A program made the position numbers and the translations under genes. A stretch of DNA of 30,540 bases. It comes from a virus. Shown here piece by piece: positions 1 to 16,392 of the stretch. Position 1 is the stretch's first letter. Every line of letters begins with the position of its first letter. Location of the stretch: positions 1-30,540 of the IMG/VR virus record IMGVR_UViG_3300043772_000601. One strand, given 5' to 3'. Below the pieces are notes generated by a model, which ran no database searches, was not told the origin of the DNA, and was given only the letters and a program-made list of their open reading frames with translations.

Positions 1-78
1 TCCTTGTAGGGAAGCGTACTGAAACATTTGGTTTCCTATATTACCTAGGTTTCCAATTTCATTATGATAGATCGTCAT
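1..78 (-). CDS. GT11-like alpha-1,2-fucosyltransferase, N-terminal fragment
   Basis: This gene runs off the left edge and only its first 26 codons are visible. The ATG at 78-76 follows a good ribosome binding site (AAAGGA, 5 bases away) inside the end of the GT10 gene, which it overlaps by 17 bases. The peptide contains GNLGNIGNQMFQYA. GNQ-M/L-FQYA is the N-terminal signature of family GT11 fucosyltransferases, which move L-fucose from GDP-fucose to a sugar 2-OH. The gene directly follows a GDP-fucose synthesis operon, which supports the call. The catalytic HxRRxD-type motif would lie outside the window, so activity cannot be judged. Confidence 0.72.
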   Translation of the reverse strand, partial: MTIYHNEIGNLGNIGNQMFQYASLQG

Positions 79-892
79 CTAAATCCTTTAAGTAATTATC
101 ATAAATATAATCTTCTACCATCATAAAGTTGTTTTTTACTATCTCACAGTTTTCTTTGATCGCATCCATTTTTGAATAGTATATATCTTCCGTTAGTGCT
201 TCTGGATCAAACTTGCCGTCCAATAAAATAATTCCATCCGTATTAAACACCTCTCCAATACTGGGGTCTCCCCAATAAACTGGAATCGTTCCAGTAGAAA
301 AACAATCTAGAATCTTCTCAGTAAAGTACCCAGGATAGTTAGCGTTTTCATGAGCGATTGAAAACATATAGTCATCTAGACCCTGCTCTTTAAACTCTAT
401 TTCATTAATTCCACGACCATATAAGTCTACCTTGCCAGATAAAGAACTTGCTAATTCCATTCTTTTTTTGTGCCCCACCGCCCAATTTTTTGTAGAAGTA
501 ATCATAGATATTTTTTTACTTTTTTCACGGACACGGGGCTCCTGAATCCAGGTTGCAGTTGCTGGTATCCACTTTATCTTTTCATGCATATTAACTAATT
601 CTCTACTGTGAGTAAAAATCATATTAAAGTTCTGAATTATTGAGTCAAAATTGTTAGCAAATTTTTCATATGTCTGTGGAACAATTGCGGCAGACTCAGT
701 TAGGGTTGCATAATTATACTTAGAGTATTCATTACACGTTAGAATCTCGTCATCTAGCCATAATATTAAATCAATATCCGAGTCTTTTGTTTCAAAGCAG
801 GGCACAAGATTCTTAGGGAATCTATTAATCCGAGAAAATATTGTCATAGAGAATTCATCGTAAGCCATACCCTTAATATGATACTTTAACAT
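62..892 (-). CDS. GT10-family (alpha-1,3/4-fucosyltransferase-like) glycosyltransferase
   Basis: This 276-residue protein carries the C-terminal donor-binding signature of GT10 fucosyltransferases. Around residues 177-210 it reads FSIAHEN, then YFTEKILDCFSTGTIPVYWG. The family transfers L-fucose from GDP-fucose to a GlcNAc or related acceptor. Length fits bacterial GT10 enzymes, which are shorter than animal ones. There is no signal peptide or membrane segment, so it should act in the host cytoplasm. It overlaps the GT9-like gene upstream by 7 bases and the GT11-like gene downstream by 17, and lies in one operon with gmd and fcl. The acceptor is unknown. The family call is strong; the fucose donor is inferred from family and neighbours. 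Confidence 0.88.
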   Translation of the reverse strand: MLKYHIKGMAYDEFSMTIFSRINRFPKNLVPCFETKDSDIDLILWLDDEILTCNEYSKYNYATLTESAAIVPQTYEKFANNFDSIIQNFNMIFTHSRELVNMHEKIKWIPATATWIQEPRVREKSKKISMITSTKNWAVGHKKRMELASSLSGKVDLYGRGINEIEFKEQGLDDYMFSIAHENANYPGYFTEKILDCFSTGTIPVYWGDPSIGEVFNTDGIILLDGKFDPEALTEDIYYSKMDAIKENCEIVKNNFMMVEDYIYDNYLKDLDDDLS

Positions 893-1740
893 GTTCCTAC
901 CAATTCTTGATAAATATTTTCTATCAAAGCATCTTCATCCTGATCTAAAAGGTTTATATATTTGCATGGAACTTTAATATTATACAACCAGTCTACTGCC
1001 TCTGAGTTAGACATGCTTATCATCACTTTATTCTTATCATTCAGGTTTTCATTAATCTGCATAAAACTAAATGGACCTGACTGTCTACCAATTATATACT
1101 TACATTTTGTAGAAAGCCAAGATATTTCATTAAGATCTGAACCCGCTGTGTTAATAATATCTCTTGTATATACGATATTATCATTTTCTATATCTGACTG
1201 GTGTGTAAGTATAATTTTTTTATCTGGAAATCTGTCGCATAAGAGTTTTACTATATTGGATGTATTTAGTATTGAAGATTGACCAGATAAAACAGGACCG
1301 TTGGAAAACATTATTGTATTTTCATAGTCACACTCAAAGTCCAGCGGTACATCAAATACAGAGAAGTCTATAAATGTTTGATAAAATTCTCTATCTAATA
1401 TCTTAACTTCTTTATCTAAGAGTTCCTGTAAATAGTTGTACACCTCTTCGTACATTTCATGTAATGAAATCCAGTTGCAGTTTCTACCATTTGATAAGTA
1501 GTTTCCGATCCAGGTATTTATGTATAATTTATCTTCATAACTAAATGTGCGATCTTGTTGAAATCTATGTCCTATTAAAAAATGATTCATATTTAAATCT
1601 TTTACTATTTTATGATCATTATTATGAGCATATGAATAGTCGTTATATTCTAAAATTTCAGATAGATGTTTAACATATGGTTTAGAGAAAAATACATCAC
1701 CATTATGAAAATTATTAAAGAAAACAATCCTATCAATCAT
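886..1740 (-). CDS. GT9/ADP-heptose-transferase-like glycosyltransferase (putative)
   Basis: This 284-residue protein is not firmly recognised. Two segments resemble the GT-B fold of heptosyltransferase-like (GT9) enzymes: an N-terminal NFHNGDVFFSKPYVKHL, where GDV is followed by a helix, and a C-terminal KYIIGRQSGPFSFMQ, like the usual nucleotide-sugar loop ending in SGP. Between them is a strand of the type KKIILTHQ. The ATG overlaps the preceding stop by one base (TGATG), so it is translationally coupled to the DUF4254-like gene. Its place between sugar-nucleotide synthesis genes and GT10 suggests it adds or handles a sugar, but donor and acceptor cannot be read from the sequence. Confidence 0.55.
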   Translation of the reverse strand: MIDRIVFFNNFHNGDVFFSKPYVKHLSEILEYNDYSYAHNNDHKIVKDLNMNHFLIGHRFQQDRTFSYEDKLYINTWIGNYLSNGRNCNWISLHEMYEEVYNYLQELLDKEVKILDREFYQTFIDFSVFDVPLDFECDYENTIMFSNGPVLSGQSSILNTSNIVKLLCDRFPDKKIILTHQSDIENDNIVYTRDIINTAGSDLNEISWLSTKCKYIIGRQSGPFSFMQINENLNDKNKVMISMSNSEAVDWLYNIKVPCKYINLLDQDEDALIENIYQELVGTC

Positions 1741-2048
1741 CAGTATGTTTTATGCTTTCTTTGTATAAATTTTCCATTATCTAAATCTAGCCCAGACATA
1801 GATGCTTGAACAATTTCTACAATTTTTTCATCTATCTCATCAATTAGTTGGTTCCTCTGGACATTTAAATCACAGGCTTTTTTCAAGGAGTCCCACAATA
1901 GTTCTGCTCCCGCCGTGTCTGAAAAGTATTTTTCTTTATATTCATCGAATGACATTCTTCTAATCTCATAGAGGAGTTCTTGATTGTTCCACATTTTTAA
2001 ATCAATGGTATTTAATTTATCAATTAAAGATCCAAGGGTATCAGACAC
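1740..2048 (-). CDS. DUF4254-like small protein of glycan loci
   Basis: This 102-residue, mostly helical, charged protein starts with TLGSLIDKLNTIDLKMW and later has NVQRNQLIDEIDEKI. This pattern resembles DUF4254 proteins, which sit in polysaccharide and glycosyltransferase clusters and have no established function. There is no membrane segment. It overlaps the acyltransferase upstream by 8 bases and the GT9-like gene downstream by one base. The family assignment is from memory of the motif and is moderate. A helper or adaptor role for the neighbouring transferase is inference only. Confidence 0.6.
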   Translation of the reverse strand: MSDTLGSLIDKLNTIDLKMWNNQELLYEIRRMSFDEYKEKYFSDTAGAELLWDSLKKACDLNVQRNQLIDEIDEKIVEIVQASMSGLDLDNGKFIQRKHKTY

Positions 2049-2628
2049 CGCTCTCCCTCACATATTCTTGTTCAAGTCCTAACAAATCTCTTGGCCTGTC
2101 TTTTATTTTTTTAGCAGGGATTCCTGCATACACCGACCAATCATCTAAATTTTTAGATACTAAAGACATGGCTCCTACAGTGGTCCCTTCACCGACTACT
2201 ATTCCTGGTAATAAAACTGAACTAGATCCTATTAAAGAATGCTTTTTTAATGTTACCAGTCCACGTTTAACATTTTTATACTTATCTGGGATCACAGCAT
2301 TTGTTAAATACCCGCCAGAATAATCATCAGAAGCGGAATATATTTTTGTGCCGTGAGATATAGCAGAAAAATCTTCCATAATTATACCACCTGATGCAGC
2401 CAACAGACAATATCCTGCGATATGAATATTTGATCCTATGCTTAAATCCCCGCCCTCTGAGGCTGTTATAGTTGTATACGCATCTATTCTTACATTAGAC
2501 CCAATAGATATATTATGTAGTCCGATAATTGTGCAGTTTTTATCAATTAAAATATTATTTCCAATGTTTTTAAATCCTGCGTCAACCAAGTCTTTTTCTG
2601 TATAAAATCCAGAATTAAATAAATTCAT
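2041..2628 (-). CDS. Left-handed beta-helix (hexapeptide-repeat) acyltransferase
   Basis: This 195-residue protein has hexapeptide-type repeats along most of its length, for example NISIGSNVRI, LSIGSNIHIAG, IMEDFSAISHGT and IVVGEGTTVGAMS. It ends with the typical VYAGIPAKKIKDR cap of sugar O- and N-acetyltransferases (WbbJ/PerB-like). The family moves acetyl from acetyl-CoA to sugars. Lying directly after a PerA-like aminotransferase, it is a good candidate for acetylating the 4-amino group of a perosamine-type nucleotide sugar. O-acetylation of another sugar is equally compatible. The start touches the preceding stop at 2628. Confidence 0.85.
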   Translation of the reverse strand: MNLFNSGFYTEKDLVDAGFKNIGNNILIDKNCTIIGLHNISIGSNVRIDAYTTITASEGGDLSIGSNIHIAGYCLLAASGGIIMEDFSAISHGTKIYSASDDYSGGYLTNAVIPDKYKNVKRGLVTLKKHSLIGSSSVLLPGIVVGEGTTVGAMSLVSKNLDDWSVYAGIPAKKIKDRPRDLLGLEQEYVRESGV

Positions 2629-3719
2629 TAGTGGGACAACACTTTCTCTATAACATATTTAACTTCATCATCACTTAAATCTGGATAACTAGGTAGATTT
2701 AATCCTCTGCGAGAAATATCTTCTGCAACCATAAAACTCTGTTGAGTATTGTACATAGGCATTGTATGAATAGGATAGAATACTGGCCTAGTTTCTATTC
2801 TATTTGCACTTAGATAATTCATTAGATTATCACGATCTTTATATTCTGATCCCAATATACTACACATCCAATAACTGTGTCTAGTATTAGGAGCCTCACT
2901 ATGAAATTCATAACCAGTATTATAGAAACCTTCTCTGTATAAAGATGCTATTTCTAACTTCCTGTTAATTAAATAATCAGATCTTTGTAGTTGGGCGATA
3001 CCAATAGCACATGCAACATTGGTCAAACGGTAGTTATACCCTATGGCATCGTGCCAGTATTGTTTTCCTTCCGCCAAGCCCTGCCCCTTTAAATGAAAGC
3101 AAATGTCTATTAAATCCTTATTGTTTGAAACCACCATGCCGCCTTCACCAGTGGTTATTGTCTTGTTTCCAAAAAAACTAAATGTCGCTATGTCCCCAAA
3201 GGTGCCAACATGTTTATTTCTAAACATAGTCCCAAATGCTTCTGCACAATCCTCTACAAGAAATAGATTATTATCTTTACAAATTTTATTAATTAAATCT
3301 AAGTCGCATGGATGACCATATAAATGAACAGCAAGAATAGCCTTTGTTCTATCAGTAATCTTTCTAGTAATATCTTCTGGGTTCATCTGCCATGAATCAT
3401 ACAAGGAATCTACAAATACTGGTGTGGCTCCGACATACTTTATAGCATTTACTGGAGCGATATAGGTTAACGTTGGAACAATTACTTCATCTCCTGGACC
3501 AATGCCTAAACTTAATAGTGCTAAATGTAAAGCAACAGTACCATTTGAAACTGTTGTTCCATACTCCACACCAATTTTTTCTGTAAATAATTGCTCAAAC
3601 ATATCAACATTCGGGCCGCGAGAGGATATCCAGGAAGACTCTAAACATTCATTAACATATTTTTTCTCTAGTTCAGTAATGGATGGAGCGTAGACTGGAA
3701 TGTTCTTATGAATAGTCAT
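2628..3719 (-). CDS. DegT/DnrJ/EryC1 aminotransferase, GDP-perosamine-synthase-like
   Basis: This 363-residue protein is a PLP-dependent sugar aminotransferase of normal family length. The PLP-binding acidic segment is LVEDCAEAFG (about 154-163). The Schiff-base lysine is K186 in FSFFGNKTITTGEGG. The TVSNGTVALHLAL segment near 55-68 binds the cofactor phosphate. FGNKTITTGEGG is the form usual in PerA-type enzymes, which aminate GDP-4-keto-6-deoxymannose to GDP-perosamine, and Gmd encoded two genes upstream would make that substrate. A different 4-keto-sugar substrate cannot be excluded. It overlaps the fcl stop by 14 bases. Confidence 0.86.
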   Translation of the reverse strand: MTIHKNIPVYAPSITELEKKYVNECLESSWISSRGPNVDMFEQLFTEKIGVEYGTTVSNGTVALHLALLSLGIGPGDEVIVPTLTYIAPVNAIKYVGATPVFVDSLYDSWQMNPEDITRKITDRTKAILAVHLYGHPCDLDLINKICKDNNLFLVEDCAEAFGTMFRNKHVGTFGDIATFSFFGNKTITTGEGGMVVSNNKDLIDICFHLKGQGLAEGKQYWHDAIGYNYRLTNVACAIGIAQLQRSDYLINRKLEIASLYREGFYNTGYEFHSEAPNTRHSYWMCSILGSEYKDRDNLMNYLSANRIETRPVFYPIHTMPMYNTQQSFMVAEDISRRGLNLPSYPDLSDDEVKYVIEKVLSH

Positions 3720-4641
3720 TATTTTCTAAGAACCATCCGTATGTATCGTTTATCCCATTTTCTAAATCTATCGATGAAGACCACCCTAAATGATTTAACT
3801 TAGATATATCAAGTTTTCTTCGTGGAGTACCATTTGGCTTATCTTTGTCCCAAATAATATTACCGTTCCATCCAACTGTGCGAGAAATAATATCTGCCAG
3901 TTCTTTAATAGAGTATTCTTTTCCAGAGCCAATATTAATATGAGAAGAATCTTCATAATTATTCATAAGGAATATTAATGCATCTGAAAGATCATCTACA
4001 TGTAGGAATTCCCTGGTGGGACTACCGTCCCCAAACAAAGTAACTTGCTTTGAATTATTTAACAGCGCCTCATGAAATTTATAGATCATGGCTGGTATAA
4101 CATGGCACTGATTTATATTAAAATTATCATTGATTCCATATAAGTTTGCTGGCATGGCTGAAATAGCGTTAAAACCATATTGCTCTTTGTACCTTTGACA
4201 CATTTTTAGCCCTGCAATTTTTGCTAATGCATAGCCTTCATTTGTTTCTTCTAATGGTGCTGTCAATAGGTATTCTTCTTTTATTGGCTGTGGGGTAACT
4301 TTAGGATATATACACGCGGAGCCAAGGAACATAAGTTTCTTTACTTTATTTTCATATGAAGAATGGATAACGTTATTCTGTATAGCAAGATTATCATAAA
4401 TAAAGTCCGCTGGAGAACTTTGATTATATGTAATTCCTCCAACTTTTGCGGCTGCTAAAAAAACATACTCTGGTTTTTGAACAGCAAAGAATCTTTTTAC
4501 ACTCATTTGGTTACGCAAATCTAATCTAGAACGATCTGCTGTAATAATATTATGATAGCCAACCATTTTTAATCTTCTAACTAAAGAAGATCCTACTAAA
4601 CCATTATGACCTGCTACATAAATAGATGAGTTATAGTCCAT
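3706..4641 (-). CDS. fcl: GDP-L-fucose synthase (GDP-4-keto-6-deoxymannose epimerase/reductase)
   Basis: This 311-residue short-chain dehydrogenase/reductase makes GDP-L-fucose from the Gmd product using NADPH. It has the Rossmann motif GHNGLVGS (11-18), the catalytic serine in GSACIYPK (S108, with the epimerisation cysteine C110), YALAK (Y137, K141) and the catalytic histidine H180 in [23 protein letters not shown] near 62-70 is also typical. All key residues are present and length matches bacterial WcaG/Fcl. It overlaps the gmd stop by 11 bases. Confidence 0.95.
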
Positions 4642-5638
4642 TAATGCACATATCCTTTACTAGATCGTCAAAGGTGTACTCTGGGCTCCAGCCCAATTCT
4701 TTCTGTGCTTTAGAAGCATCCCCAAGAAGTCGATCTACTTCTGCTGGACGAATATATTTTTTGTCTACAACTACTACGGTTCTACCAGTTTTAGAGTCGA
4801 TTCCTATTTCATTAAATCCTTCACCCTGCCACTCAATAGACATACCAAAGTAGGGGGCACACCTTTCAACAAAGTCCTTGACTGTGTACTCTTCACCTGT
4901 AGCAATAACATAGTCGTCGGGCGAATCTTGTTGCATCATTAGCCACATCGCCCTAACAAAATCTTTGGCATGGCCCCAGTCTCTTAATGCATTTAGGTTG
5001 CCTAGTCTAAGAACATCTGCCTTACCCGACTGAATATCTCTTAGACCTAAGACGATCTTTCTGGTAACAAATGTCTCGCCTCTGCGTGGCGACTCATGGT
5101 TAAACAAAATTCCATTACAAGCAAACATATCATAGGCTTCACGATAATTCTTAGTAATCCAATAAGCATAAAGTTTTGCTACTCCATATGGAGATCTAGG
5201 GTAGAAGGGGGTAGTTTCAGACTGTGGGACCTCTTGCACTAATCCATATAATTCTGACGTAGCCGCCTGATAAAACTTTGTAACTGGATCTAAGTAGTTC
5301 ATTCTAATTCCTTCAAGCATCCTAAGTGTACCTAGGGCATCGGAATTAGCAGTAGACTCTGGTGTTTCAAACGACACCTGGACATGACTTTGAGCGCCAA
5401 GATTATAAATTTCGTCTGGCTGAATCTCACCAATTAATTTCACAGTAGATAGAGAATCTGTAAGATCTCCATAATGTAGTTTAAAGTTTGGATGGTCGTA
5501 AAGGTGATCTACTCTATGTGTATTGATAGATGATGACCTTCTTTTAATTCCATGAACAACATAATCTTTTTCTAGCAGCAACTCTGCAAGGTATGATCCG
5601 TCCTGACCAGTAATGCCAGTAATCAATGCTGTCTTCAT
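4631..5638 (-). CDS. gmd: GDP-mannose 4,6-dehydratase
   Basis: This 335-residue enzyme converts GDP-D-mannose to GDP-4-keto-6-deoxy-D-mannose, the first committed step to fucose, rhamnose and perosamine nucleotides. Visible features are the NADP-binding [12 protein letters not shown] (8-19), the family-specific [15 protein letters not shown] (31-45), the catalytic T127/E129 in AATSELYG, and Y151 xxx K155 in [12 protein letters not shown]. It looks intact and full length. GDP-mannose must come from the host, since no ManB/ManC is visible here. The ATG overlaps the upstream methyltransferase stop (ATGA). Confidence 0.96.
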
Positions 5639-6411
5639 ATTTTAACCTTACTTTTAATAACCACATTATATGGCCCAGTTCTTGGACGCTCCTCTTCTAT
5701 GTCTGATAAAAGGAATGATTCATGTATATTTGGAGTGTTCCATACTAAATAATGATATGGAAAATTAATCATTTTGTCAATATAAAACTGCTGAACATCT
5801 GGCATAAATTCGCCTAATGCGTATACACTAATTAAATAATTAAATTCTGGAAGCACTTCTTGGTTGTCAGAAAGTTTTTCATATGAAATATATTTAATAT
5901 TTTTGGTATACCCTAGAGAGTCTAAATATTTTTTCTGTAATTCGTTAGGCCAGTAAAGATCTACTAGAATATATGACTTGATACTGATATCAAATAGCGG
6001 GGCAAAGTCTAGAATCATCTTACATTGACCGCCATAGCCAGCACCGATCTCTAAAATATTTATATTATTTAAAGAACTGTCCTTCATATGTTGTAAAATA
6101 TCTAGTGCTTTAAAGACATAAGCAATGGTTGACGGTGAAAATAATTTATTATCACCAGGAATTTCTGGATATTCTGTTAATACTGGAGATCCTATTAAAT
6201 CATTCTCCGCCACCTTTTCCCAATTAATAAGATTAATTTTATCTGCGTATTCACTAAGAGCCCGTGACAGGAATTGTTTAGAAAACTCTTCTAACGTATG
6301 CTCTAAAATAGTTGTAAAATAACTATCTCTCTTAAAAGTATTAAAAGATTCTTCCTCTTTTACCGCTAGTTCACAAACTGGAACGTGTACATAGGCTGAA
6401 AGATCATACAT
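5635..6411 (-). CDS. SAM-dependent methyltransferase, putative sugar O-methyltransferase
   Basis: This 258-residue protein has the SAM-binding motif [16 protein letters not shown] in its middle, followed by a YILVDLY strand (motif II) and an aromatic-rich C-terminal part. GAGYGG after a long N-terminal helical region resembles putative sugar O-methyltransferases of polysaccharide loci. I place the start at the ATG at 6411, five codons inside a longer TTG-initiated frame, because GAGGAGA lies just upstream. This also cuts the overlap with the preceding gene to 8 bases. It heads the sugar operon. Methylation of the deoxysugar is inferred from context. Confidence 0.75.
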
Positions 6412-6625
6412 TTGTTTTCTCCTCAATAATGCAGTCTATGCAGTAGAAGTCTGCAAGATTATTATATGCCTCTTCAGTCAGCAGGGGGCACAACTGATTA
6501 AAGTCTGCAATCTCATTTGTGCAGTCAATATTAGAGCAGTAATATTCCTGTGGTTGCTTTATTTCTTCTATAGATCTTTTTTTAAATAAGAACACCATGG
6601 AACCCAAGGCTTCAGTCAGATTCAT
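6404..6625 (-). CDS. Small cysteine-containing protein, unknown
   Basis: I do not recognise this protein. From the ATG at 6625 it has 73 residues; a TTG 12 bases earlier is possible. It has cysteine pairs CSNIDC in the middle and CIDC near the C-terminus, with another single cysteine between, which would suit a small zinc-binding fold. The start lies inside the end of the upstream 56-residue gene, so the two are probably translated together. Confidence 0.6.
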   Translation of the reverse strand: MNLTEALGSMVFLFKKRSIEEIKQPQEYYCSNIDCTNEIADFNQLCPLLTEEAYNNLADFYCIDCIIEEKTNV

Positions 6626-6782
6626 AATCAATCCCAAGTTCTCTTAATTCAGTAAGGTCATCATTTTCTATAATTTCTTCATGGTAATGACCGTCTTTAA
6701 AAAATTTTACTTTTGAATAAAGGGCATGTTTTTGTACTACTTCTCCCCAACATGCTTCTGATTCTATCCAAATTAGTCCCAT
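6612..6782 (-). CDS. Small conserved-looking protein, 56 residues, unknown
   Basis: The ATG at 6782 overlaps the upstream stop (TAATG) and follows a strong ribosome binding site, AAGGAG, 6 bases away. The product begins MGLIWIESEACWGEVVQ and ends in an acidic ELGIDYESD. There are no membrane segments and no known motif. It fills a gap that would otherwise be empty, and its stop overlaps the next gene's start region. Coupling and ribosome binding site make it real; the function is unknown. Confidence 0.7.
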   Translation of the reverse strand: MGLIWIESEACWGEVVQKHALYSKVKFFKDGHYHEEIIENDDLTELRELGIDYESD

Positions 6783-7030
6783 TAGACACTCCTTGGCGGA
6801 TCGCCAGGAACCCCCTGAAAGTCACAAACATATCCAAATTGTTCTACTATCCCCCGCAACTTGAAGAGATGTTCCATAACAATCATTTGTTTTTCGTTTG
6901 ATAGAGCCATGATTTCATTCTCATAAACTCTTAAGGCAAGAAAATTTGGCATTTCTACAATATCAATAATGACATTATACGGAGGTTTATTTTCTTTAAG
7001 AATTTTAAAGACTAGTGGGTCATATTTCAA
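6782..7030 (-). CDS. Unknown small protein after whiB
   Basis: I do not recognise this protein. The longest frame starts at an ATG at 7075 deep inside the whiB gene. A TTG at 7030 lies 6 bases after AAGGAG and gives an 82-residue protein overlapping the whiB stop by only 11 bases, so I prefer it. The sequence looks like an alpha/beta fold: NVIIDIV and FLALRVY strands, then a long helix NEKQMIVMEHLFKLRGIV. It ends GVPGDPPRSV. Confidence 0.6.
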   Translation of the reverse strand: MKYDPLVFKILKENKPPYNVIIDIVEMPNFLALRVYENEIMALSNEKQMIVMEHLFKLRGIVEQFGYVCDFQGVPGDPPRSV

Positions 7031-7328
7031 TGTCTTCTCCTTCAGATACCAGACCAAGTATTCTAGCCCAAACATCTTGGGTCTTATGTGAATTTCTTAC
7101 ATTGTCTAGTTTACCATCATTTAGGAATACGCCGCCCCAAACACCAAAGGATTCCGTTTGAACCCCATAGTCAAAGCATTCTTTAATTACTGGACAAGAC
7201 ATACACCGTCTATCTATTTCTTTTGCTAGACCTTGATCCAACTCATATTTATCAAAATAGTCCTCAGTGTCTGTGCCTGCACATAATGCTTCAGTTACCC
7301 ACATATTTACTTGGCACTTTCCATCCAT
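7020..7328 (-). CDS. WhiB-family [4Fe-4S] transcription regulator
   Basis: The protein has all the WhiB hallmarks: four cysteines in the pattern ALC, then CMSC and C (C16, C42, C45, C51 counted from the ATG at 7328), and the turn GVWGG after the cluster. WhiB-like proteins bind an iron-sulfur cluster and pair with the sigma factor to control transcription. They are essentially confined to actinobacteria and their phages. An ATG at 7304 (MWVTEALC) is also a good start, and an ATG at 7385 is possible but overlaps the upstream gene more. In mycobacteriophage TM4 a phage WhiB interferes with host WhiB2; a similar role here is inference. Confidence 0.9.
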   Translation of the reverse strand: MDGKCQVNMWVTEALCAGTDTEDYFDKYELDQGLAKEIDRRCMSCPVIKECFDYGVQTESFGVWGGVFLNDGKLDNVRNSHKTQDVWARILGLVSEGEDIEI

Positions 7329-7509
7329 TACTACCTGGGAAGTATCTCTTGGCAACTCCCCAAGTTCCATGACGGAACATGCCATTTTTCTTATAGAAGC
7401 CGTCCTTAAGTGGCTTCCAGTCTACAATAACCCAACCGTCCCAGAATAGATTCTTGTGTGAATCTACTAACTCATGCGCGGCTTCGTAATTTACAAATGT
7501 CTGTGACAT
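7291..7509 (-). CDS. Small aromatic-rich protein, unknown
   Basis: This 72-residue protein is unrecognised. It is rich in tryptophan, lysine and glycine (LFWDGWVIVDWKPLKDG, then MFRHGTWGVAKRYFPG). It has no cysteine or membrane segment. Its ATG touches the deaminase stop at 7509, so it is translationally coupled. The order deaminase, this gene, WhiB suggests a cluster of early or host-takeover genes, but nothing in the protein shows a function. Confidence 0.65.
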   Translation of the reverse strand: MSQTFVNYEAAHELVDSHKNLFWDGWVIVDWKPLKDGFYKKNGMFRHGTWGVAKRYFPGSNGWKVPSKYVGN

Positions 7510-7865
7510 TATTCCTCACTCATTGTATAGATAACTTTTTTGATTCCATTGCTTTTAATAACTTCAAAACATCTCTTGCATGGGCGGCTATCCCTAGCCT
7601 CTCCTCTTTTATTTACCCTAGCAATATAAATAGTCGCACCATTTACATCTCTAGCCTTTTTGATAGCATCAATCTCAGCATGAACTGAACAGTGATCCTT
7701 GATATGCTCGCTAGAAACAATTCTTGGATGACTTCGTTCCTTATTCACTCCAGTAGAAATAACTCTTCCACCCTTTACAATAACAGATCCATGCTTCATT
7801 CTACACTGTGACTGTGATGCTAGATAAGACGCTACGGAAAGATATGCTTGGTCGCGCTTAGATAC
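7509..7865 (-). CDS. dCMP/cytidine deaminase-like zinc enzyme with an irregular start
   Basis: The catalytic zinc motif is HAEIDAI plus PCKRC, typical of deoxycytidylate deaminases, which make dUMP for dTTP synthesis. The first ATG in frame (7799, MKHGSVIV) has no ribosome binding site and would remove the family's N-terminal helix. That helix is encoded directly upstream in the same frame (SKRDQAYLSVASYLASQ). The open frame extends back to a stop at 7892-7890, but no ATG, GTG or TTG lies there. The coordinate given begins at a GTA 9 bases after AAAGGAG. A frameshift from the ATG at 7893 is the main alternative. The catalytic core looks intact. Confidence 0.75.
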   Translation of the reverse strand, partial: VSKRDQAYLSVASYLASQSQCRMKHGSVIVKGGRVISTGVNKERSHPRIVSSEHIKDHCSVHAEIDAIKKARDVNGATIYIARVNKRGEARDSRPCKRCFEVIKSNGIKKVIYTMSEE

Positions 7866-7893
7866 GGCGACCTGCTCCTTTGATAATCCTCAT
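7858..7893 (-). CDS. 11-codon mini-ORF at the deaminase 5' end
   Basis: An ATG at 7893 preceded by AGGAG (4-5 bases) opens an 11-codon frame (MRIIKGAGRRI) that ends at TAA 7860-7858. It is the only well-placed start between the SLOG-like gene and the deaminase. It lies one reading frame away from the deaminase N-terminal helix. It may be the true deaminase start joined by a +1 shift, a coupled leader peptide, or the mark of an indel in this copy or the assembly. Confidence 0.4.
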   Translation of the reverse strand: MRIIKGAGRRI

Positions 7894-7900
7894 GATTCTC

Positions 7901-8269
7901 CTATACCTTATAGATACTTACAGGAATATTATTATTCTCTGCCTCAGAAATTACTACATCAAAAATTTCTGAACGATCACTCTTCGTTGATAAATATACT
8001 ACACTATCTAGATCATACTTGTCAAAGTTTTCTGCAACATCATTCTTTAAAACTCGGTAGAACCTGGACTTGATTCCTTTTTGCTTAAAGAATCCTTCAG
8101 TCTTATTAACGAATTCAGCAGCGAATTGATTAATTTTATATGGACCCGCAGTATAAATCTCTAATTTATTATCTTGATTAGAAACATTTTGGTCAATGGC
8201 AACTACCACTGCTCGGGTAAAAGTATCATAATCGGAAAACTTTGTATTTCCGTAAACAAGAATTTTCAT
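7901..8269 (-). CDS. SLOG/DUF2493-like Rossmann-fold protein
   Basis: This 122-residue protein begins MKILVYGNTKFSDYDTFTRAV and continues with LEIYTAGPYKINQFAAEF and a helix ending in KGIKSRFYRV. This strand, then T/S-rich loop, helix and second strand with a glycine turn resembles the small YspA/DUF2493 branch of the SLOG nucleotide-binding superfamily. The usual GSR loop is replaced by GNT. SLOG proteins bind nucleotides or nucleotide-derived signals, and the precise ligand is unknown here. Confidence is moderate because only the fold-level pattern is visible. Confidence 0.55.
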   Translation of the reverse strand: MKILVYGNTKFSDYDTFTRAVVVAIDQNVSNQDNKLEIYTAGPYKINQFAAEFVNKTEGFFKQKGIKSRFYRVLKNDVAENFDKYDLDSVVYLSTKSDRSEIFDVVISEAENNNIPVSIYKV

Positions 8270-8277
8270 TTTATTCC

Positions 8278-8772
8278 TTAATAAATATCTCTAAAGGGAC
8301 CATCTATAATCCACTCGTCTTCATCTATGTTAATAATATTAATTGAATCGCCTATAAATGTCAAGTAACTTAGTGAAGGAGTGTGAATTACTACTGATGC
8401 TGTCTGTGGCTCTATGGTAATGCTACCATTCCCTGCCCTTACTATTCTAATTTGAGTTCCTAGTCTATATGGATAGTTTTTATGGTATCCAATAATAAAC
8501 TCAGACGGGGAGGCAGACTTTGCATAAACTGTAGAGTTATCAAAACTTTCATCTAAAGTAGCAGAAAAAGATACTGTGGAATTATCTCCAACTAATTTAC
8601 TTATATTTCCAGTATGAGTTAAATGATTATTCTCATCTAATAGAGTGACCCAAACACCCTGTGAGTGTAGCCTTAACGTTGAACTAGAAGAATTAAAATA
8701 AATATCTCCTTCATTATTAATGATAGGATCATTTGTTAGATCTGCTGGATTTATTGGAGATACAAATTTCAT
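8278..8772 (-). CDS. Putative phage structural protein (tail or decoration type)
   Basis: This 164-residue protein begins MKFVSPINPADLTNDPIINN and has GDIYFNSSSSTLRLHSQGVWVTL. The 'small item shown in a given frame, then W' pattern is common in phage tail-fibre and appendage proteins. The rest is beta-rich with few charges. I use the ATG at 8772 (ATGA overlap with the upstream stop) rather than a TTG at 8790. A virion role is inferred from composition. Confidence 0.55.
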   Translation of the reverse strand: MKFVSPINPADLTNDPIINNEGDIYFNSSSSTLRLHSQGVWVTLLDENNHLTHTGNISKLVGDNSTVSFSATLDESFDNSTVYAKSASPSEFIIGYHKNYPYRLGTQIRIVRAGNGSITIEPQTASVVIHTPSLSYLTFIGDSINIINIDEDEWIIDGPFRDIY

Positions 8773-9248
8773 ATAAATCTGCCGCCCCAAAGATTTTTAT
8801 CTACATTTACATATCCTGGTGGAATGGCTGCCAATCTACATTTACCCATCTCTTGAATTTCATAAGAAAGTATCTTACATCCAAGACCGCCATCCTCTTT
8901 TTCAAAATGTAAAGAGCAGTTGCCACACATAACCCCAATGGATGCATCTTTATTTTGGGCTGGAGGTTCATATCCAATCCAAATGCCTGTACTTTCGTCA
9001 TCTAGAGACCCATACTTTTCTGCTAAAGCAACTAAAGAGTCATGGAACTCTTTTTCTGGTTCAGACAACTGCTCGTATAAATCTTCCATTTTAGTCATTT
9101 TTTTAGACTGTGCTTCTGCTGCATACAGGGCACGTTGCTGCTGAATAGCAGCATTACGAGAAGGGTGTGTGCCATGCACTCGCCCACTTGGACTTACAAC
9201 AGAATATCCAGATTTACCACGATAGTTTTGCCTAATATCATACGGCAT
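8769..9248 (-). CDS. Two-part phage protein: N-terminal basic repeat-like segment and C-terminal Cys cluster
   Basis: This 159-residue protein has two parts. The first 45 residues (YRGKSGYSVVSPSGRVHGTHPS, then a helix with AAIQQQRALYAAE) resemble a short module often seen at the ends of actinophage proteins. The C-terminal half has four cysteines (MCGNC, GC, KC) followed by RLAAIPPGYVN, a likely metal site. A helix at 52-80 joins them. A strong ribosome binding site (GGGAGG) precedes the ATG. I do not know its function; the gene position suggests a virion-associated protein. Confidence 0.6.
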   Translation of the reverse strand: MPYDIRQNYRGKSGYSVVSPSGRVHGTHPSRNAAIQQQRALYAAEAQSKKMTKMEDLYEQLSEPEKEFHDSLVALAEKYGSLDDESTGIWIGYEPPAQNKDASIGVMCGNCSLHFEKEDGGLGCKILSYEIQEMGKCRLAAIPPGYVNVDKNLWGGRFI

Positions 9249-9279
9249 AAATCAGCCTCCCAAGCATTTATTAAATCTA

Positions 9280-10437
9280 TTATACCTTAAGAAGAGAAAT
9301 TTTCTTATTTTTTTCGGCTTGTGCTTTCATATGAATAAGTTCTATTGCCTCAGACCACTGATATTTGACTGTAAAAATATTAAAGTTCTGTGTGGCAATT
9401 TTAAAGTTGTTCTGCCTTTCCTCTTCTCTAACTTCTGGATCAAGCAACTGCTTTAGATGTTTAAGCCAATCTTTATTTGACTTAGCAATTCTTCCAACCC
9501 CCATATCTGCTAAGTCTCTATACTCTTGGGTATCTGATGCAACAAAGGGTATGCCAGATAGAGCATATTCAAGACCTTTTAGATTACTCTTAGCCTCATT
9601 AAACTGATTCGGATTCAACGGTACTATGCCAATATCTATTGGCATAAAAACATTAGCATAATACTCTGGCCTTGAGCCAGTGAACCCAGTGACTCTTTCA
9701 GGGTCGATATTGAGGGCTTCCGCGATCCATTTTGGTCTATCTAGCATAATACCCGTATGATGAAAATTTAAACCATACTTTTCAATAGTGGTTTTAATGG
9801 GTCCAGAGACATGCTTTAAATCATCTACTCGCCACATCATAATGCCTACCCAACCAATAGTAGGCTTAAATCCAGCAGTATCTAATCTATAAATAAAAGT
9901 TTGTGGGTCTAAAGAGTTTTTTACTCTATATACTGTATCGTTATACTGAAGCATTCTTTGCTCTAAGAATTTAGTGCTAGCAATAATTCCGTCTGCAACT
10001 GAATATGTTGATATTAGATGCTCTCTATTATTATCTGGATTTCTAATAGGATCGGTAGTAATAAATGCTAAATTATCCTCTGGAAGTTTCTCAAAGTGAT
10101 CGTCTGTGTCAATAATTACAGTTTGACCATACGACTTAGCAAGTTCAATATACTTAACTGCATCTTTATGCATAAAAAGTTTTAGAACTACTACATCTAG
10201 TTTATCAAAAGCCCATGAGTATTCTTTGATTACTGATCTATGCTTTGCTTTTAACCGTTCGATAGGTTTTACTGCGACAAAACCTTCTCCATCTTTCCAG
10301 CCAATTTCACCTACCATAACTTCATGACCTATTTTATTTAGGTGTAGCCCTGGAATCATCATTCTGACATTAGTACAACCTCCAGGCTGACCTTCTAAAT
10401 GATCTCCCCAGTCAGTAGATAGTAATCCTATTCTCAT
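9280..10437 (-). CDS. GT-B fold glycosyltransferase (GT4-like)
   Basis: The start is placed at the second of two adjacent ATGs (MRIGLLSTDWGDHLEG); the first is at 10440. The 385-residue protein has an N-terminal GG loop, GQPGGCTNVRMMIPG, of GT-B enzymes, and a C-terminal donor-site region with NEAKSNLKGLEYALSGIPFVAS and then TQEYRDL, the E-x7-E-like region of GT4. Donor and acceptor are unknown. It has no signal peptide. It stands apart from the sugar operon at 1-6411, separated by structural-looking genes, so it may act on a virion protein or on a cell-surface glycan. Confidence 0.8.
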   Translation of the reverse strand: MRIGLLSTDWGDHLEGQPGGCTNVRMMIPGLHLNKIGHEVMVGEIGWKDGEGFVAVKPIERLKAKHRSVIKEYSWAFDKLDVVVLKLFMHKDAVKYIELAKSYGQTVIIDTDDHFEKLPEDNLAFITTDPIRNPDNNREHLISTYSVADGIIASTKFLEQRMLQYNDTVYRVKNSLDPQTFIYRLDTAGFKPTIGWVGIMMWRVDDLKHVSGPIKTTIEKYGLNFHHTGIMLDRPKWIAEALNIDPERVTGFTGSRPEYYANVFMPIDIGIVPLNPNQFNEAKSNLKGLEYALSGIPFVASDTQEYRDLADMGVGRIAKSNKDWLKHLKQLLDPEVREEERQNNFKIATQNFNIFTVKYQWSEAIELIHMKAQAEKNKKISLLKV

Positions 10438-10456
10438 CATTCTCCATTAGTTGTGA

Positions 10457-10503
10457 TGTGGCGGGGGTGTTGCCGCACATTTTATTGTGTTTCCCCCGCC
10501 ACA
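10457..10503. repeat. Large hairpin in intergenic gap
   Basis: The 78-base gap between the lysozyme-like gene and the GT4-like gene holds a perfect 11-bp inverted repeat, TGTGGCGGGGG and CCCCCGCCACA, with a 25-base interior that can form a second 4-bp stem (CACA/TGTG). It is GC-rich in an AT-rich genome. There is no T-run on either side, so it does not look like a standard intrinsic terminator; it may stabilise mRNA ends or attenuate read-through. Confidence 0.6.
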
Positions 10504-10518
10504 CCGACTATCTATAAA

Positions 10519-11139
10519 TTATACCTTTTTTGGAGTGCATTTACCAGGAAACAGCGACCATCCAGTATTAAAGGGTGCAATAACCCATGAATAAGTCAGG
10601 CTAGATCCCCATAGGGAGTAATACATTCCTGCATTCTCGTACCATGAATCATTCTTAAACGAATAACCGTATCCCCAATTATGCATTCCATCATTCAAAA
10701 AGTGCTTTCTAACAATTTCTGATTGTTTTTTCTTGTCTAGCATATTATCTCTAGACCACCAGGATCTTCCTGACCAAGCACTCGTTTGAATTTGCCAAGT
10801 ACCCAGGGCACCTGAATACCATAAACTTGACTCATCAAGTGCCTGATGCTTTGATTCACGCCAGGTAATTGCCCAGGCTCCTCTAAGCATCCCAGGTCTA
10901 TTAAAACCTGCTTTAAACAGAATCTTTGCCTGCTTATCATTACATTTAGACGGCAGCGACCAGTTTCTATCTGTTACTGCCTTTCTTTCTAATGCGTCAG
11001 CGGTGGCAAAGTTTCCTATACCTTCCGCCAAGGGCGCAGACTTAGCATACGCCATGCTTGGTGCAGCAATAAAAGTAATTGCCAAAACTGCAGCGGCAAT
11101 CCAATCTACTGCCAAACCAATTTGGTTTTTTGTCGTCAT
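10519..11139 (-). CDS. Exported lysozyme/transglycosylase-like lytic enzyme
   Basis: From the ATG at 11139 (AAGGAGGT ribosome binding site 4 bases upstream) this is a 206-residue protein. It has a typical Sec signal peptide: a hydrophobic stretch WIAAAVLAITFIAAPSMAYA ending in an AYA cleavage site. The mature part has AWAITWRESKHQALDESS, where the glutamate is the likely acid, and SGALGTWQIQTSAWSG, the usual lysozyme/SLT-like pairing. It would cut peptidoglycan outside the membrane. It may serve lysis, or DNA entry if packaged. No separate holin was recognised. The catalytic glutamate is assigned by pattern only. Confidence 0.72.
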   Translation of the reverse strand: MTTKNQIGLAVDWIAAAVLAITFIAAPSMAYAKSAPLAEGIGNFATADALERKAVTDRNWSLPSKCNDKQAKILFKAGFNRPGMLRGAWAITWRESKHQALDESSLWYSGALGTWQIQTSAWSGRSWWSRDNMLDKKKQSEIVRKHFLNDGMHNWGYGYSFKNDSWYENAGMYYSLWGSSLTYSWVIAPFNTGWSLFPGKCTPKKV

Positions 11140-11189
11140 ATTGACCTCCTTGGGCGGCAACATCTATTTATTCTACAGCATAAAAATAA

Positions 11190-11294
11190 TTACCAATTAA
11201 TTATTTCTAGCATGTTATTGTACATATTAATATGTGGCTTTAATGCATAGCCGTTATCAGTTTTTACTAAACAGTAAAAAGTAAAGTATTTCAT
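11190..11294 (-). CDS. Possible 34-residue peptide coupled to the lipoprotein gene
   Basis: An ATG overlaps the lipoprotein stop (TAATG at 11296-11292) and opens 34 codons, beginning MKYFTFYCLVKTDNGY and ending LEIINW. The overlap is the same kind used by real gene pairs in this window. There is no strong ribosome binding site and no recognised motif. The same stretch contains two palindromes: TTTTTACT/AGTAAAAA at 11261-11280 and ACATATTAATATGT at 11222-11235. It could be non-coding regulatory sequence instead. Confidence 0.45.
   Translation of the reverse strand: MKYFTFYCLVKTDNGYALKPHINMYNNMLEIINW
11261..11280. repeat. Short AT-rich inverted repeat
   Basis: TTTTTACT and AGTAAAAA form a perfect 8-bp inverted repeat with a 4-base loop, just downstream of the lipoprotein stop. 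As RNA it would be a weak A/T-rich hairpin. It could be part of a terminator or an operator, but it also lies within the possible 34-codon ORF. Confidence 0.35.
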
Positions 11295-11686
11295 TAGAAA
11301 GTTGATGACTCACAGAGATAATTTTTAGCCCCAACAATTAGAGCCGCCCCAAACTTTGCGCCATCATCATTGTCCATATCATTATTTACAAGAGCCTGTG
11401 CCAGAACATAAGTAATTTCATCCTCTGACAAACCTCCAGCAAAACCTTCACAAATAGTTTGCCCTAAACTAAAAATATCAGACTCTTCGGCAATCTGACC
11501 ATAGATACCACCATTGTCCCTAATAAAATCAACAAACTTCTGTGAGTTAGTAACAACACCATCATCTGTATTAAGTGGTGCAGGAGCCTGCTCTGTAATA
11601 GTTACAGTTGGAGTTGGTTCCGACTGTGACGTACATCCAACTAGTGCCACCATAGAAATAGTGGCGGCTACAATAATCTTCTTCAT
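11294..11686 (-). CDS. Lipoprotein with a DUF732-like domain
   Basis: This 130-residue protein has a lipobox ending in LVGC with the lipidated cysteine at 18, after a short basic and hydrophobic signal. A Ser/Pro/Thr-rich linker follows. The remainder, from KFVDFIRDNGGIYG to TICEGFAGGLSEDE and then KNYLC, matches the DUF732 layout of actinobacterial exported proteins, with two cysteines that could pair. The gene has an AAAGGA ribosome binding site. It would sit on the host's membrane. Phage lipoproteins can block superinfection; that role here is inference. Confidence 0.7.
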   Translation of the reverse strand: MKKIIVAATISMVALVGCTSQSEPTPTVTITEQAPAPLNTDDGVVTNSQKFVDFIRDNGGIYGQIAEESDIFSLGQTICEGFAGGLSEDEITYVLAQALVNNDMDNDDGAKFGAALIVGAKNYLCESSTF

Positions 11687-11711
11687 ATTAATCCTTTTCT
11701 ATAAATGACTT

Positions 11712-11744
11712 GCCCACGACACTAATAATACAGTAGTCGTGGGC
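11712..11744. terminator. Possible terminator or attenuator hairpin
   Basis: GCCCACGAC (11712-11720) and GTCGTGGGC (11736-11744) form a perfect 9-bp GC-rich stem; inner bases can extend it with a bulge. It lies between the 52-residue gene stop (11758) and the lipoprotein ribosome binding site. The run after it on the transcribed strand (AAGTCATTTATAG) is only partly U-rich, so termination would be weak. Confidence 0.45.
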
Positions 11745-11757
11745 TGGGTGTCAATGA

Positions 11758-11916
11758 TTATGCTTGACGGGCAAAGATTGCATCAATCTCTGCAACATGG
11801 GACGGGCCAAATCGTGAAGCCTCGCTTCTTGCTCTGTCCCATTCACTCTGAAGTTTATAGTTGCTTGTGGCATCTGTTCTAAATACTTCTGAGAAAAAAT
11901 GTGCAAACGCTCTCAT
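11758..11916 (-). CDS. Small protein, 52 residues, unknown
   Basis: The ATG at 11916 follows AAGGAGG by 6 bases, one of the best ribosome binding sites in the window, and is preceded by a sigma70-like promoter. The product, from MRAFAHFFSEVFR to AEIDAIFARQA, is helical and charged, with RSEASRFGPSHVAEI in the second half. I have seen similar phage and bacterial microproteins but cannot name the family. Its own promoter suggests it is expressed independently. Confidence 0.75.
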   Translation of the reverse strand: MRAFAHFFSEVFRTDATSNYKLQSEWDRARSEASRFGPSHVAEIDAIFARQA

Positions 11917-11944
11917 AATATCCTCCTTGTGGGTTGATACTTTA

Positions 11945-11973
11945 ATCTTATCAGGGTAACTCTAAGAGGTCAA
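11945..11973 (-). promoter_or_regulatory. Sigma70-like promoter upstream of the 52-residue gene
   Basis: On the minus strand TTGACC (-35, 11968-11973) and TAAGAT (-10, 11945-11950) are spaced by exactly 17 bases. Transcription would start near 11938, about 20 bases before the ATG at 11916. It is the clearest canonical promoter I found and could drive the 52-residue gene, the lipoprotein, the lysozyme and perhaps genes further left. Confidence 0.6.
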
Positions 11974-11999
11974 ATTTAAAAGGCTTTTTGTGACCAGCC

Positions 12000-12167
12000 T
12001 CACTCATCATAGTCCCATCGAATAATCATCATTGCATATCTTAACCCCTGTCTAAACCACTCTGCTTCTGAAGAATAATCTTCTGCAAAAGGAGTTTCGA
12101 TACATTCTTCTATTTGATCTGAGAATCTATCTCGCCAATATTTTTGGCATTCATCATCGCTATGCAT
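12000..12167 (-). CDS. Small acidic protein, 55 residues, unknown
   Basis: An ATG at 12167 opens 55 codons ending in a TGA at 12000, immediately after the tRNA-Asn. The product, from MHSDDECQKYWRDRFSDQ to MIIRWDYDE, is acidic, rich in aromatic and charged residues and has two cysteines. The ribosome binding site is weak; GTGGAA just upstream could serve, or an in-frame GTG at 12173. No known motif. Confidence 0.5.
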   Translation of the reverse strand: MHSDDECQKYWRDRFSDQIEECIETPFAEDYSSEAEWFRQGLRYAMMIIRWDYDE

Positions 12168-12174
12168 TTCCACG

Positions 12175-12246
12175 CTGGCATGGTAGGATTCGAACCTACA
12201 ACCTATCGGTTAACAGCCGATTGCGCTGCCGTTGCGCCACATGCCA
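12175..12246 (-). tRNA. tRNA-Asn (anticodon GTT)
   Basis: A full cloverleaf can be drawn on the minus strand. The acceptor stem is TGGCATG/CATGCCA (7 bp). The D-arm is GCGCAACGGCAGCGC. The anticodon stem-loop is ATCGG CTGTTAA CCGAT with anticodon GTT, and the T-arm contains GGTTCGAATCC. No CCA is encoded. Phage tRNAs usually supplement the host pool; asparagine codons are common in this AT-rich genome. Confidence 0.93.
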
Positions 12247-12258
12247 CTGCTTAAAACG

Positions 12259-12329
12259 CTGGAGAATCAGGGGTCGAACCTAAACTAAATGTTCCAAAGA
12301 CATTTGTGCTGCCATTACACCATTCTCCA
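12259..12329 (-). tRNA. tRNA-Gln (anticodon TTG)
   Basis: The acceptor stem is TGGAGAA/TTCTCCA and the D-arm is GTGTAATGGCAGCAC. The anticodon stem-loop is AATGT CTTTGGA ACATT, giving anticodon TTG (reads CAA), as is typical of Gln tRNAs that begin with T. The T-arm contains GGTTCGACC with one G-T pair. CCA is not encoded. It sits 12 bases from tRNA-Asn, and the two are likely processed from one transcript. Confidence 0.9.
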
Positions 12330-12332
12330 TAA

Positions 12333-12434
12333 CCGATGTGCCAACGGGTAACTACACCATCCCAAGGTTTTCTGCACGTTTGACTAACTTCATGCTGGTA
12401 TCAACCGCGTAACTCGGCATTGCTGGCACATCGG
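12333..12434 (-). ncRNA. Paired-end structured element beside the tRNAs (putative)
   Basis: A perfect 11-bp inverted repeat, CCGATGTGCCA (12333-12343) and TGGCACATCGG (12424-12434), encloses 80 bases between tRNA-Gln and the next gene. The enclosed minus-strand sequence includes ATGGTGTAGTTACCCG, which resembles a tRNA D-arm, but no complete cloverleaf, CCA or T-loop could be drawn. It also has a 22-codon frame with no ribosome binding site. It could be a decayed tRNA, an RNA of another class or a processing hairpin. Confidence 0.45.
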
Positions 12435-12437
12435 AGT

Positions 12438-12921: not shown

Positions 12922-12927
12922 GACCAA

Positions 12928-16381: not shown

Positions 16382-16392
16382 GCTATCTCCTA

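Follow-up and report, generated by a model that had tools for sequence, protein, structure and literature searches.

One end of a 30,540-nucleotide (nt) stretch of tailed-phage DNA, positions 1 to 30,540 of IMG/VR virus record IMGVR_UViG_3300043772_000601 (in the following the window), carries a sugar locus that continues on a second contig of the same phage and whose middle is exchanged between near relatives. This exchange is its strongest feature and is invisible from the sequence of the window alone. On balance, we favor the interpretation that it is a glycotype locus: its enzymes would supply GDP (guanosine diphosphate)-L-fucose and an N-acyl-perosamine for a glycan that would be built in the cytosol, with decoration of the virion as the favored outcome.

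Sugar genes of aquatic phages are often explained as altering the lipopolysaccharide (LPS) of the host. Here, a lineage with relatives that infect actinobacteria, which are not known to have LPS, has a seemingly complete route to two deoxysugars, the deciding enzyme of which is swapped between near relatives. The same phage backbone with a different sugar offers a clean natural comparison for what phage-made glycans do, and the locus is a compact source of soluble-looking enzymes for rare sugars.

Genes and predicted pathway of the locus

A preliminary description of the window had placed seven to nine genes at 1-6411. Eight complete open reading frames (ORFs) and the start of a GT11 glycosyltransferase (GT) are located there as described, all on the minus strand; the complete ORFs are intact, with neighbors overlapping by 1-14 nt. 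Once the continuation on the second contig (L002) is counted, the locus totals 13 genes, not the seven to nine given before. From 6426 downward, preceded by a small gene at the left edge of the locus and followed by the genes seen on L002, the order is:

6404 to 6637, minus strand: conserved small gene at the left edge (53-68% identity in seven relatives with this edge)
5635 to 6426, minus strand: NanM-like putative sugar O-methyltransferase (TIGR04371, 44.3 bits, a marginal pass of the cut-off of 44)
4631 to 5638, minus strand: Gmd, GDP-mannose 4,6-dehydratase (NCBIfam equivalog TIGR01472, 543.4 bits, above the cut-off of 415)
3706 to 4641, minus strand: Fcl-like, GDP-L-fucose synthase (NF047922, 453.5 bits, under the cut-off of 500; PDB 1bsv, E = 4.4e-98)
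2628 to 3719, minus strand: PerA-like aminotransferase, predicted GDP-perosamine synthase (best PDB match 3bn1, perosamine synthetase, E = 1.9e-92)
2041 to 2628, minus strand: left-handed beta-helix (hexapeptide) acyltransferase (best PDB match 3vbi, E = 3.4e-49)
1740 to 2048, minus strand: DUF4254-like small protein (PF14063, 18.7 bits, below the cut-off of 27)
886 to 1740, minus strand: putative glycosyltransferase with GT9 (GT-B) fold (AlphaFold 2 model; predicted local distance difference test, pLDDT, 87.4; predicted template modeling score, pTM, 0.85)
62 to 892, minus strand: GT10, alpha-1,3/4-fucosyltransferase family (PF00852, 38.0 bits against a cut-off of 23.9)
1 to 78, minus strand: start of GT11, alpha-1,2-fucosyltransferase family, truncated where the contig ends (GNIGNQMFQYA motif)
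L002, 15561 to 16334: complete GT11 of 257 amino acids (PF01531, 80.2 bits against a cut-off of 23.9)
L002: GT25 (PF01755, 56.3 bits against a cut-off of 24)
L002: GT2, the first of two GT2-type proteins after GT25
L002, 17559 to 18350: second GT2-type protein (PF00535, 21.7 bits, just under the cut-off of 23.3)
L002: EPI, an RmlB-like dehydratase of 336 residues that keeps TDE and YSASK motifs, presumably functional ones

Profile, PDB and fold comparisons agree with the families assigned in the preliminary description, some of them below cut-off (Fcl-like, DUF4254-like and GT9). Its claim of intact catalytic residues in Gmd and Fcl likewise holds in alignments with the Escherichia coli enzymes: Gmd matches PDB 1db3 (E = 3.4e-140) at the TSE (T-x-E) and YxxxK positions, and the Fcl-like enzyme matches 1bsv at S, C, YxxxK and H, residues that we take to be catalytic in the respective enzymes. 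The Fcl-like enzyme could instead play a ColC-like role. The aminotransferase keeps the pyridoxal phosphate (PLP) lysine in FFGNKTITTGEGG and scores 410 bits in the DegT family (cut-off 19.8); its 23 NCBIfam matches include no PerA-specific model, the best being LegC with 359.3 bits, below the cut-off of 420. On its closest solved relatives and its PLP lysine, we call it PerA-like and predict a perosamine synthase. The best match of the acyltransferase, 3vbi, is AntD of anthrose synthesis, which we take to be an N-acyltransferase of a 4-amino-4,6-dideoxysugar, and N-acylation of perosamine is its probable role here.

No family match above curated cut-off was obtained for the GT9-like protein in profile searches. 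By prediction it has a GT-B fold resembling GT9 heptosyltransferases: the top Foldseek match is the GT9 structure 3tov (E = 8.9e-8, TM score 0.52), and VIA Z scores are 15.1 for WaaC and 14.7 for 3tov. As chains of NDH-PSI reach 15.6 and 15.3, level with WaaC, the fold alone is no proof of a transferase. In GT10, residues 165-232 align with the fucosyltransferase FucT (PDB 2nzw), including GYxTEK. Finally, the methyltransferase ORF was called from a TTG at 6426; an ATG at 6411 matches the ATG start of its homolog in the relative L003 and is the likely start.

Both Fcl and PerA act on GDP-4-keto-6-deoxymannose, the product of Gmd. In the pathway that we infer, Gmd would convert GDP-mannose of the host into this intermediate, part of which the Fcl-like enzyme would turn into GDP-L-fucose, the sugar donor used by GT10 and GT11, and another part of which the PerA-like enzyme would turn into GDP-perosamine, to be converted to an N-acyl form by the acyltransferase encoded next to PerA. 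Fucose would be transferred by GT10 and GT11, and the amino sugar probably by the GT9-fold protein together with the DUF4254-like protein; the remaining steps to a short glycan, assembled in the cytosol on a virion protein of the phage, would fall to GT25, the two GT2-type proteins and the methyltransferase. In relatives, the branch enzyme and its partners are replaced between conserved flanks, which would give each phage a glycan type comparable to bacterial O-antigen types. The earlier idea of a phage operon that makes and attaches a deoxysugar glycan is borne out insofar as the locus looks fit for it, but with two branches instead of one linear pathway.

Exchange of the cassette between related phages

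Relatives were scanned among the best 80 of 274 matches for Gmd and the best 80 of 151 for EPI. Four near relatives (L003-L006) share the left-flank genes WhiB, p97 and orf77 with the window, and three of them (L003, L005 and L006) have both flanks. These flanks are 53-99% identical, leaving aside the hypervariable gene p170 and the right flank of L004. In all four, a ColD-like dehydratase and a DUF6165 relative stand in place of PerA, the acyltransferase and the DUF4254-like protein, and neither of the latter two has a match in any of them. Around this replacement, Gmd is 78-90% and the Fcl-like enzyme 72-79% identical to the window; the GT9-like genes of four relatives from the Gmd scan are 36-42% identical. 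The methyltransferase is found at 55-74% in three of the four near relatives, with no match in L004, whose contig ends inside the locus.

The best PDB match of the ColD-like enzyme in L005 is WbdK/ColD (E = 6.8e-59, versus 2.7e-22 for perosamine synthase), and its DUF6165 neighbor scores 50.4 bits against a cut-off of 27. In each of L003-L006, a histidine occupies the site of the PLP lysine; the same holds for all 13 ColD-like loci that were compared, a number in which two contigs appear twice. Since an enzyme of this kind takes the place of PerA, the swap would occur at the branch-point intermediate GDP-4-keto-6-deoxymannose, with amination in one version and removal of the 3-hydroxyl in the other.

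Further arrangements occupy the same site, at which five relatives with both flanks (L085-L089; L085 is the same contig as L003) have a sugar locus. In a third arrangement, L086 encodes Gmd, an extra gene, Fcl, a ColD-like enzyme, GT10, an FkbM methyltransferase and GT11, and L087 agrees at the labeled genes. The fourth, L088, is without Gmd, GT10 and GT11 and has another epimerase. Both flanks are common to these two arrangements; L084, L091 and L094 show still others, with only the right flank available for comparison.

Pairwise nucleotide identities also vary within the locus. L085 and L089, two ColD-type phages, show 60-79% identity up to position 10250, but 93-96% over 6001-7250, a 1.25-kb block with the last part of the GT9 gene and with GT10. 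Between L085 and the window phage, identity reaches 78-87% over 2001-3250 (Gmd plus the first part of Fcl), 48-65% over 4001-7000 (the exchanged part) and 95-96% from 10251 (the dehydratase). From these values, it looks as if pieces are exchanged between conserved ends.

Such strong mosaicism would also be expected of loosely selected cargo, that is, of sugar genes acquired and recombining without a specific role for the phage, some of them decaying, and in L003 the ColD-like frame (11878-13083) is indeed split by an in-frame stop, although it is intact in L004, L005 and L006. We nevertheless consider this explanation improbable, as all eight complete genes of the window are intact and tightly overlapping, and as the order from Gmd to GT11 recurs in another actinophage locus (L165), where the shared genes are 36-74% identical.

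When the viral collection was scanned with the methyltransferase or the GT9-like protein, the same phage and no other was recovered. The exact peptide patterns behind these two scans miss relatives such as those obtained with Gmd (methyltransferases at 55-74%, GT9-like genes at 36-42%), and the scans are silent on rarity.

The right part of the locus has a distribution of its own. In L152 (8607-11008) and L154 (8591-11008), UvsX and TerL (the terminase large subunit) enclose the GT2b-GT2a-EPI core, which in the window clade is found downstream of WhiB; it therefore appears to have moved within the genome. In many of L100-L125, and in L132, TerL is followed by EPI, with the window gene p159 at 51-56% where covered, and no match to Gmd or Fcl was found in the covered stretch. 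Relatives of the core dehydratase also occur in the cultured Arthrobacter phages Mimi (L229, 11989-13053, 62%) and Racecar (L230, 11956-13053, 57%). There they bear the annotation UDP-glucose dehydrogenase, and GTs and a nucleotidyl transferase are encoded at a distance of some kilobases.

Phage, host and assembly

The 30.5-kb record, whose annotated genes are all on the minus strand, is assigned to a tailed phage by its terminase, DnaE-type polymerase, UvsX-like protein, primase and DnaB helicase genes. The terminase is located as follows:

13796 to 15571, minus strand: terminase large subunit (phrog_9, E = 2.6e-20; 61.9% identical to Streptomyces phage Forrest)

Over nearly their full length, the DnaE-type polymerase and TerL are 55.8% and 61.9% identical to Streptomyces phage proteins. 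One such relative, Gilson, is classed in the Stanwilliamsviridae, to which, as judged from TerL and DnaE of a fragment, the window contig appears related. In Gilson itself (L082, 15180-16904), two glycosyltransferases and an annotated heptose kinase/adenyltransferase lie upstream of the terminase. Because the window carries a WhiB-like gene and its nearest relatives are Streptomyces phages, its host is probably an actinobacterium.

The locus sits at the end of the window and its middle is unlike that of the relatives, as might result from a chimeric contig or a piece of host chromosome, a concern raised in the preliminary description. We regard the chance of such an artifact as negligible. A second contig (L163, which continues as L002) matches bases 1-16426 of the window with one mismatch, which rules out a chimera at this junction and host chromosome alike; L002 then runs through the sugar locus into genes common to L003, and this site is also occupied by a sugar locus in L085-L089.

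The perosamine branch in other genomes

A PerA scan of the viral collection yielded six loci: L164 (the same phage), L165, L166, L167, L168 (which repeats L166) and L169. At an identity of at least 62%, this leaves four distinct phage PerA loci, namely the window, L165, L166 and L167. An acyltransferase follows PerA in all four: a hexapeptide enzyme in the window and L166 (58% identical), and a GNAT in L165 and L167 (51% to each other). The other three loci also encode, downstream of PerA, an aligned homolog of the DUF4254-like protein (75-78%).

The preliminary description had proposed looking for the same gene set in other phages, and in L165 the order Gmd-Fcl-PerA-acyltransferase-DUF4254-GT9-GT10-GT11 recurs, with two extra genes before PerA, shared genes at 36-74% and an acyltransferase of another fold. 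A few genes from its PerA, L165 carries a likely sugar-heptose branch (15071-18108: GHMP kinase, a SIS protein below cut-off, a HAD/cytidylyltransferase-like protein and an epimerase). L166 is probably a cyanophage contig, with a psbA-type gene and ferredoxin beside PerA, the acyltransferase and the DUF4254-like gene; L167 has PerA and the DUF4254-like gene and shares with L166 an upstream gene and the Gmd-Fcl-PerA order. In a 636-kb uncultured phage (LR756504.1, 213269-216175), an aminotransferase (30.8%), a DUF4254-like protein (77.5%) and a GT9-like protein (34%) are encoded in a row. A 735-kb uncultured phage (LR756501.1, 310522-311361) has a GT9-like relative at 34%.

Among 26 full-length cellular PerA relatives at an identity of at least 53% (the partial L219 excluded), 13 have Gmd in the examined flank, which was cut at 6 kb or at contig ends. 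The DUF4254-like gene occurs in none of 56 cellular loci, which suggests a phage protein that accompanies the perosamine branch. Annotated phages contain no match to the perosamine synthase at E = 1e-60; at 1e-10, PerA matches 84 records, all below 60%, with 28.5-34.8% among the 15 matches listed and the best place at 34.5% over 98% of the protein. In a PerA tree, 26 of the 29 cellular entries form a supported group (95/96) that excludes the four phage sequences. A single, phage-only origin of PerA was considered but is not shown by the tree: it requires two changes, and 7% of bootstrap trees have one.

Virion, host surface or DNA

To which acceptor the sugars may be transferred was approached by profile searches in 12 phage records of 20-96 kb, several of them short fragments, one the window's own phage and one (L088) without most of the cassette, and in 14 control genomes. 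The initiating transferase family PF02397, the GtrA flippase family PF04138 and the Wzx-type family PF01943 are each absent from all 12 phage records and present in 9, 7 and 13 of the control genomes; conversely, GT10 is found in 11 of the 12 phage records and in no control genome. Furthermore, a hydropathy scan finds no above-threshold segment in any of the 13 proteins of the locus, whereas the controls GtrA, GtrB and GtrC of phage P22 have one, two and eight. The absence of these families argues softly against a lipid-carrier route of the phage's own, and because they were not found, a glycan made in the cytosol on a virion protein is the simplest reading; between virion and host surface, the evidence leans toward the virion. 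As PF00483 (ManC/RmlA superfamily) is likewise in 0 of 12 phage records, versus 14 of 14 control genomes, GDP-mannose seems to be supplied by the host.

Genes upstream of the locus include:

8278 to 8790, minus strand: p170, hypervariable fiber-like gene, about 1.9 kb upstream of the methyltransferase
9280 to 10440, minus strand: further glycosyltransferase (phrog_7162 glycosyltransferase, E = 3.8e-33; PF13692 weak, below cut-off)

In the five relatives aligned, of which L005 and L006 are nearly identical to each other here, p170 is 30-36% identical; in the same five, its neighbors p159 and p122 are 72-96% and 84-89% identical. It has no Pfam match, and its N-terminal motif leads into collagen-like repeats, identified by eye, in the L080 homolog; the collagen family was found in none of the 12 phage records, which do not include L080. 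A role as fiber-like virion protein or glycan acceptor is our guess. Still further upstream, p214 (10519-11163; 74-95% in relatives) has one hydropathy segment of 2.22 and is a possible membrane protein near the locus, and the window gene p130 has one of 1.68.

Proximity to a fiber-like gene, as in host-recognition islands, and a possible membrane protein would suit a remodeling of the host surface, in which the sugars are put on an envelope polysaccharide during infection and hide receptors from rival phages, with glycan types following host or competitor variation. This is also a usual published view of glycosyltransferases in phage islands (PMC7029224, PMC9602691; a remark on superinfection in PMC10202952). 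We consider it possible but not probable: PF02397, PF04138 and PF01943 are missing from the records, the locus proteins lack the hydropathy segments of P22 gtrABC, and the inferred hosts would have no LPS.

Alternatively, the sugars could be placed on modified bases of the phage genome as a protection against restriction. DNA glycosylation has been proposed for GTs of freshwater actinophages (PMC10202952) and cyanophages (PMC10611076), and a short dCMP deaminase-like protein of 96 amino acids is encoded at 7509-7799. The family of thymidylate synthase and hydroxymethylase (PF00303), however, is in 0 of the 12 phage records (9 of 14 control genomes), which speaks against a hydroxymethyl-based version, the one route to modified bases that was searched. 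GT10 and GT11, moreover, act on carbohydrate acceptors, and we regard DNA glycosylation as very unlikely.

Several points weigh against virion decoration by a two-branch glycotype locus. The acceptors of GTs are not readable from sequence, GT25, GT11 and GT9 also occur in LPS synthesis, and the host could provide lipid carrier and flippase. The searches covered the families named, with Wzy polymerase and other membrane families not among them; all records are fragments or of uncertain completeness, which makes absences soft; and the hydropathy scan is coarse, with ColD and UvsX, soluble by family, each scoring one segment at 1.65. The Fcl-like and DUF4254-like proteins stayed under their curated cut-offs and hence have only -like names. 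The PerA version is seen in one phage of this clade (window/L002), and at L169, which has a PerA relative at 44% and is on another phage contig, no DUF4254-like match is found and PerA is directly followed not by an acyltransferase but by a radical-SAM-like gene, named by eye. The p170 model (AlphaFold 2, pLDDT 31.5) is unusable, and p214 may be a membrane protein.

Going beyond virion decoration, one may picture a serotype locus of actinophages: a polymorphic, recombining cassette whose diversity selection maintains, drawing on a common gene pool with cyanophages and huge phages, and setting the glycan of a virion fiber (perhaps p170), which would decide which hosts, rivals and grazers recognize the particle. 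We think this extension rather unlikely.

Comparison with known systems

Like the window locus, P22-type gtrABC are phage genes that alter a glycan. They encode membrane proteins, among them a GtrA-type flippase, whereas the proteins of the window locus look soluble, include their own sugar-nucleotide enzymes and come without PF04138 in the 12 records. Bacterial O-antigen loci have conserved flanks and a variable middle. O-antigen and capsule loci with PerA or ColD share with the window exchangeable, sugar-specifying enzymes of the same families; by contrast, the window locus belongs to a phage, its proteins do not look membrane-bound, and the 12 records gave no match to the initiating transferase and Wzx families.

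Among phages, pelagimyophages and cyanomyophages have hypervariable host-recognition islands, in which fiber genes and glycosyltransferases lie between conserved genes (PMC7029224). The variable part in the window differs from this host recognition cluster in being an ordered sugar-nucleotide pathway that is swapped at one branch-point enzyme with its partners. Glycosyltransferases are also present in the freshwater actinophages E7 and F5, which differ from each other in an 8-kb island encoding hypothetical proteins (PMC10202952). A literature survey with most subscription journals outside its coverage brought up precedents from cyanophages, pelagiphages and freshwater actinophages. Among the titles and abstract openings listed, none reports cassette exchange of this sort in actinophages; no paper unites phage, perosamine, glycosyltransferase and virion, and none combines six terms for virion glycosylation, negatives that count for little given the coverage.

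The preliminary description held a whole pathway in one phage to be unusual, an overstatement in view of cultured cyanophages with clusters of Gmd, Fcl and GTs. In S-CAM7, fiber genes flank a run of four genes, for Gmd (69%), Fcl (47%), a ColD-like enzyme and a glycosyltransferase; this glycosyltransferase was considered as a GT10 relative and gave no significant match. S-SCSM1 has Gmd, Fcl, an alpha-1,2-fucosyltransferase, NodZ and five more GTs (PMC9602691), and cyanophage Gmd-Fcl islands have long been known (PMC10611076, PMC9602691). A DNA match covers both Gmd and Fcl in all 20 phage matches listed (of 85), and a ColD-like enzyme occurs in 50 records, at 55-57% among the 20 matches listed.

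The window locus thus belongs to a known kind. A close counterpart in gene order is the actinophage locus L165, which has Gmd, Fcl, PerA, DUF4254-like, GT9-like, GT10 and GT11 in the same sequence and differs by a GNAT instead of the hexapeptide acyltransferase and by the added, likely heptose branch. With the cyanophage islands (S-CAM7, S-SCSM1, P-SSM2) and ACG-2014f, the window locus shares adjacent Gmd and Fcl genes, GTs and fucosyltransferases. It differs from the cyanophage islands in its phage lineage and, presumably, in the phylum of its host; the PerA matches in phage records are distant, and in the window clade it is near relatives, with conservation on both flanks, that show the exchange. 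The two-branch pathway in an actinophage lineage, together with exchange at the branch enzyme, appears to be new.

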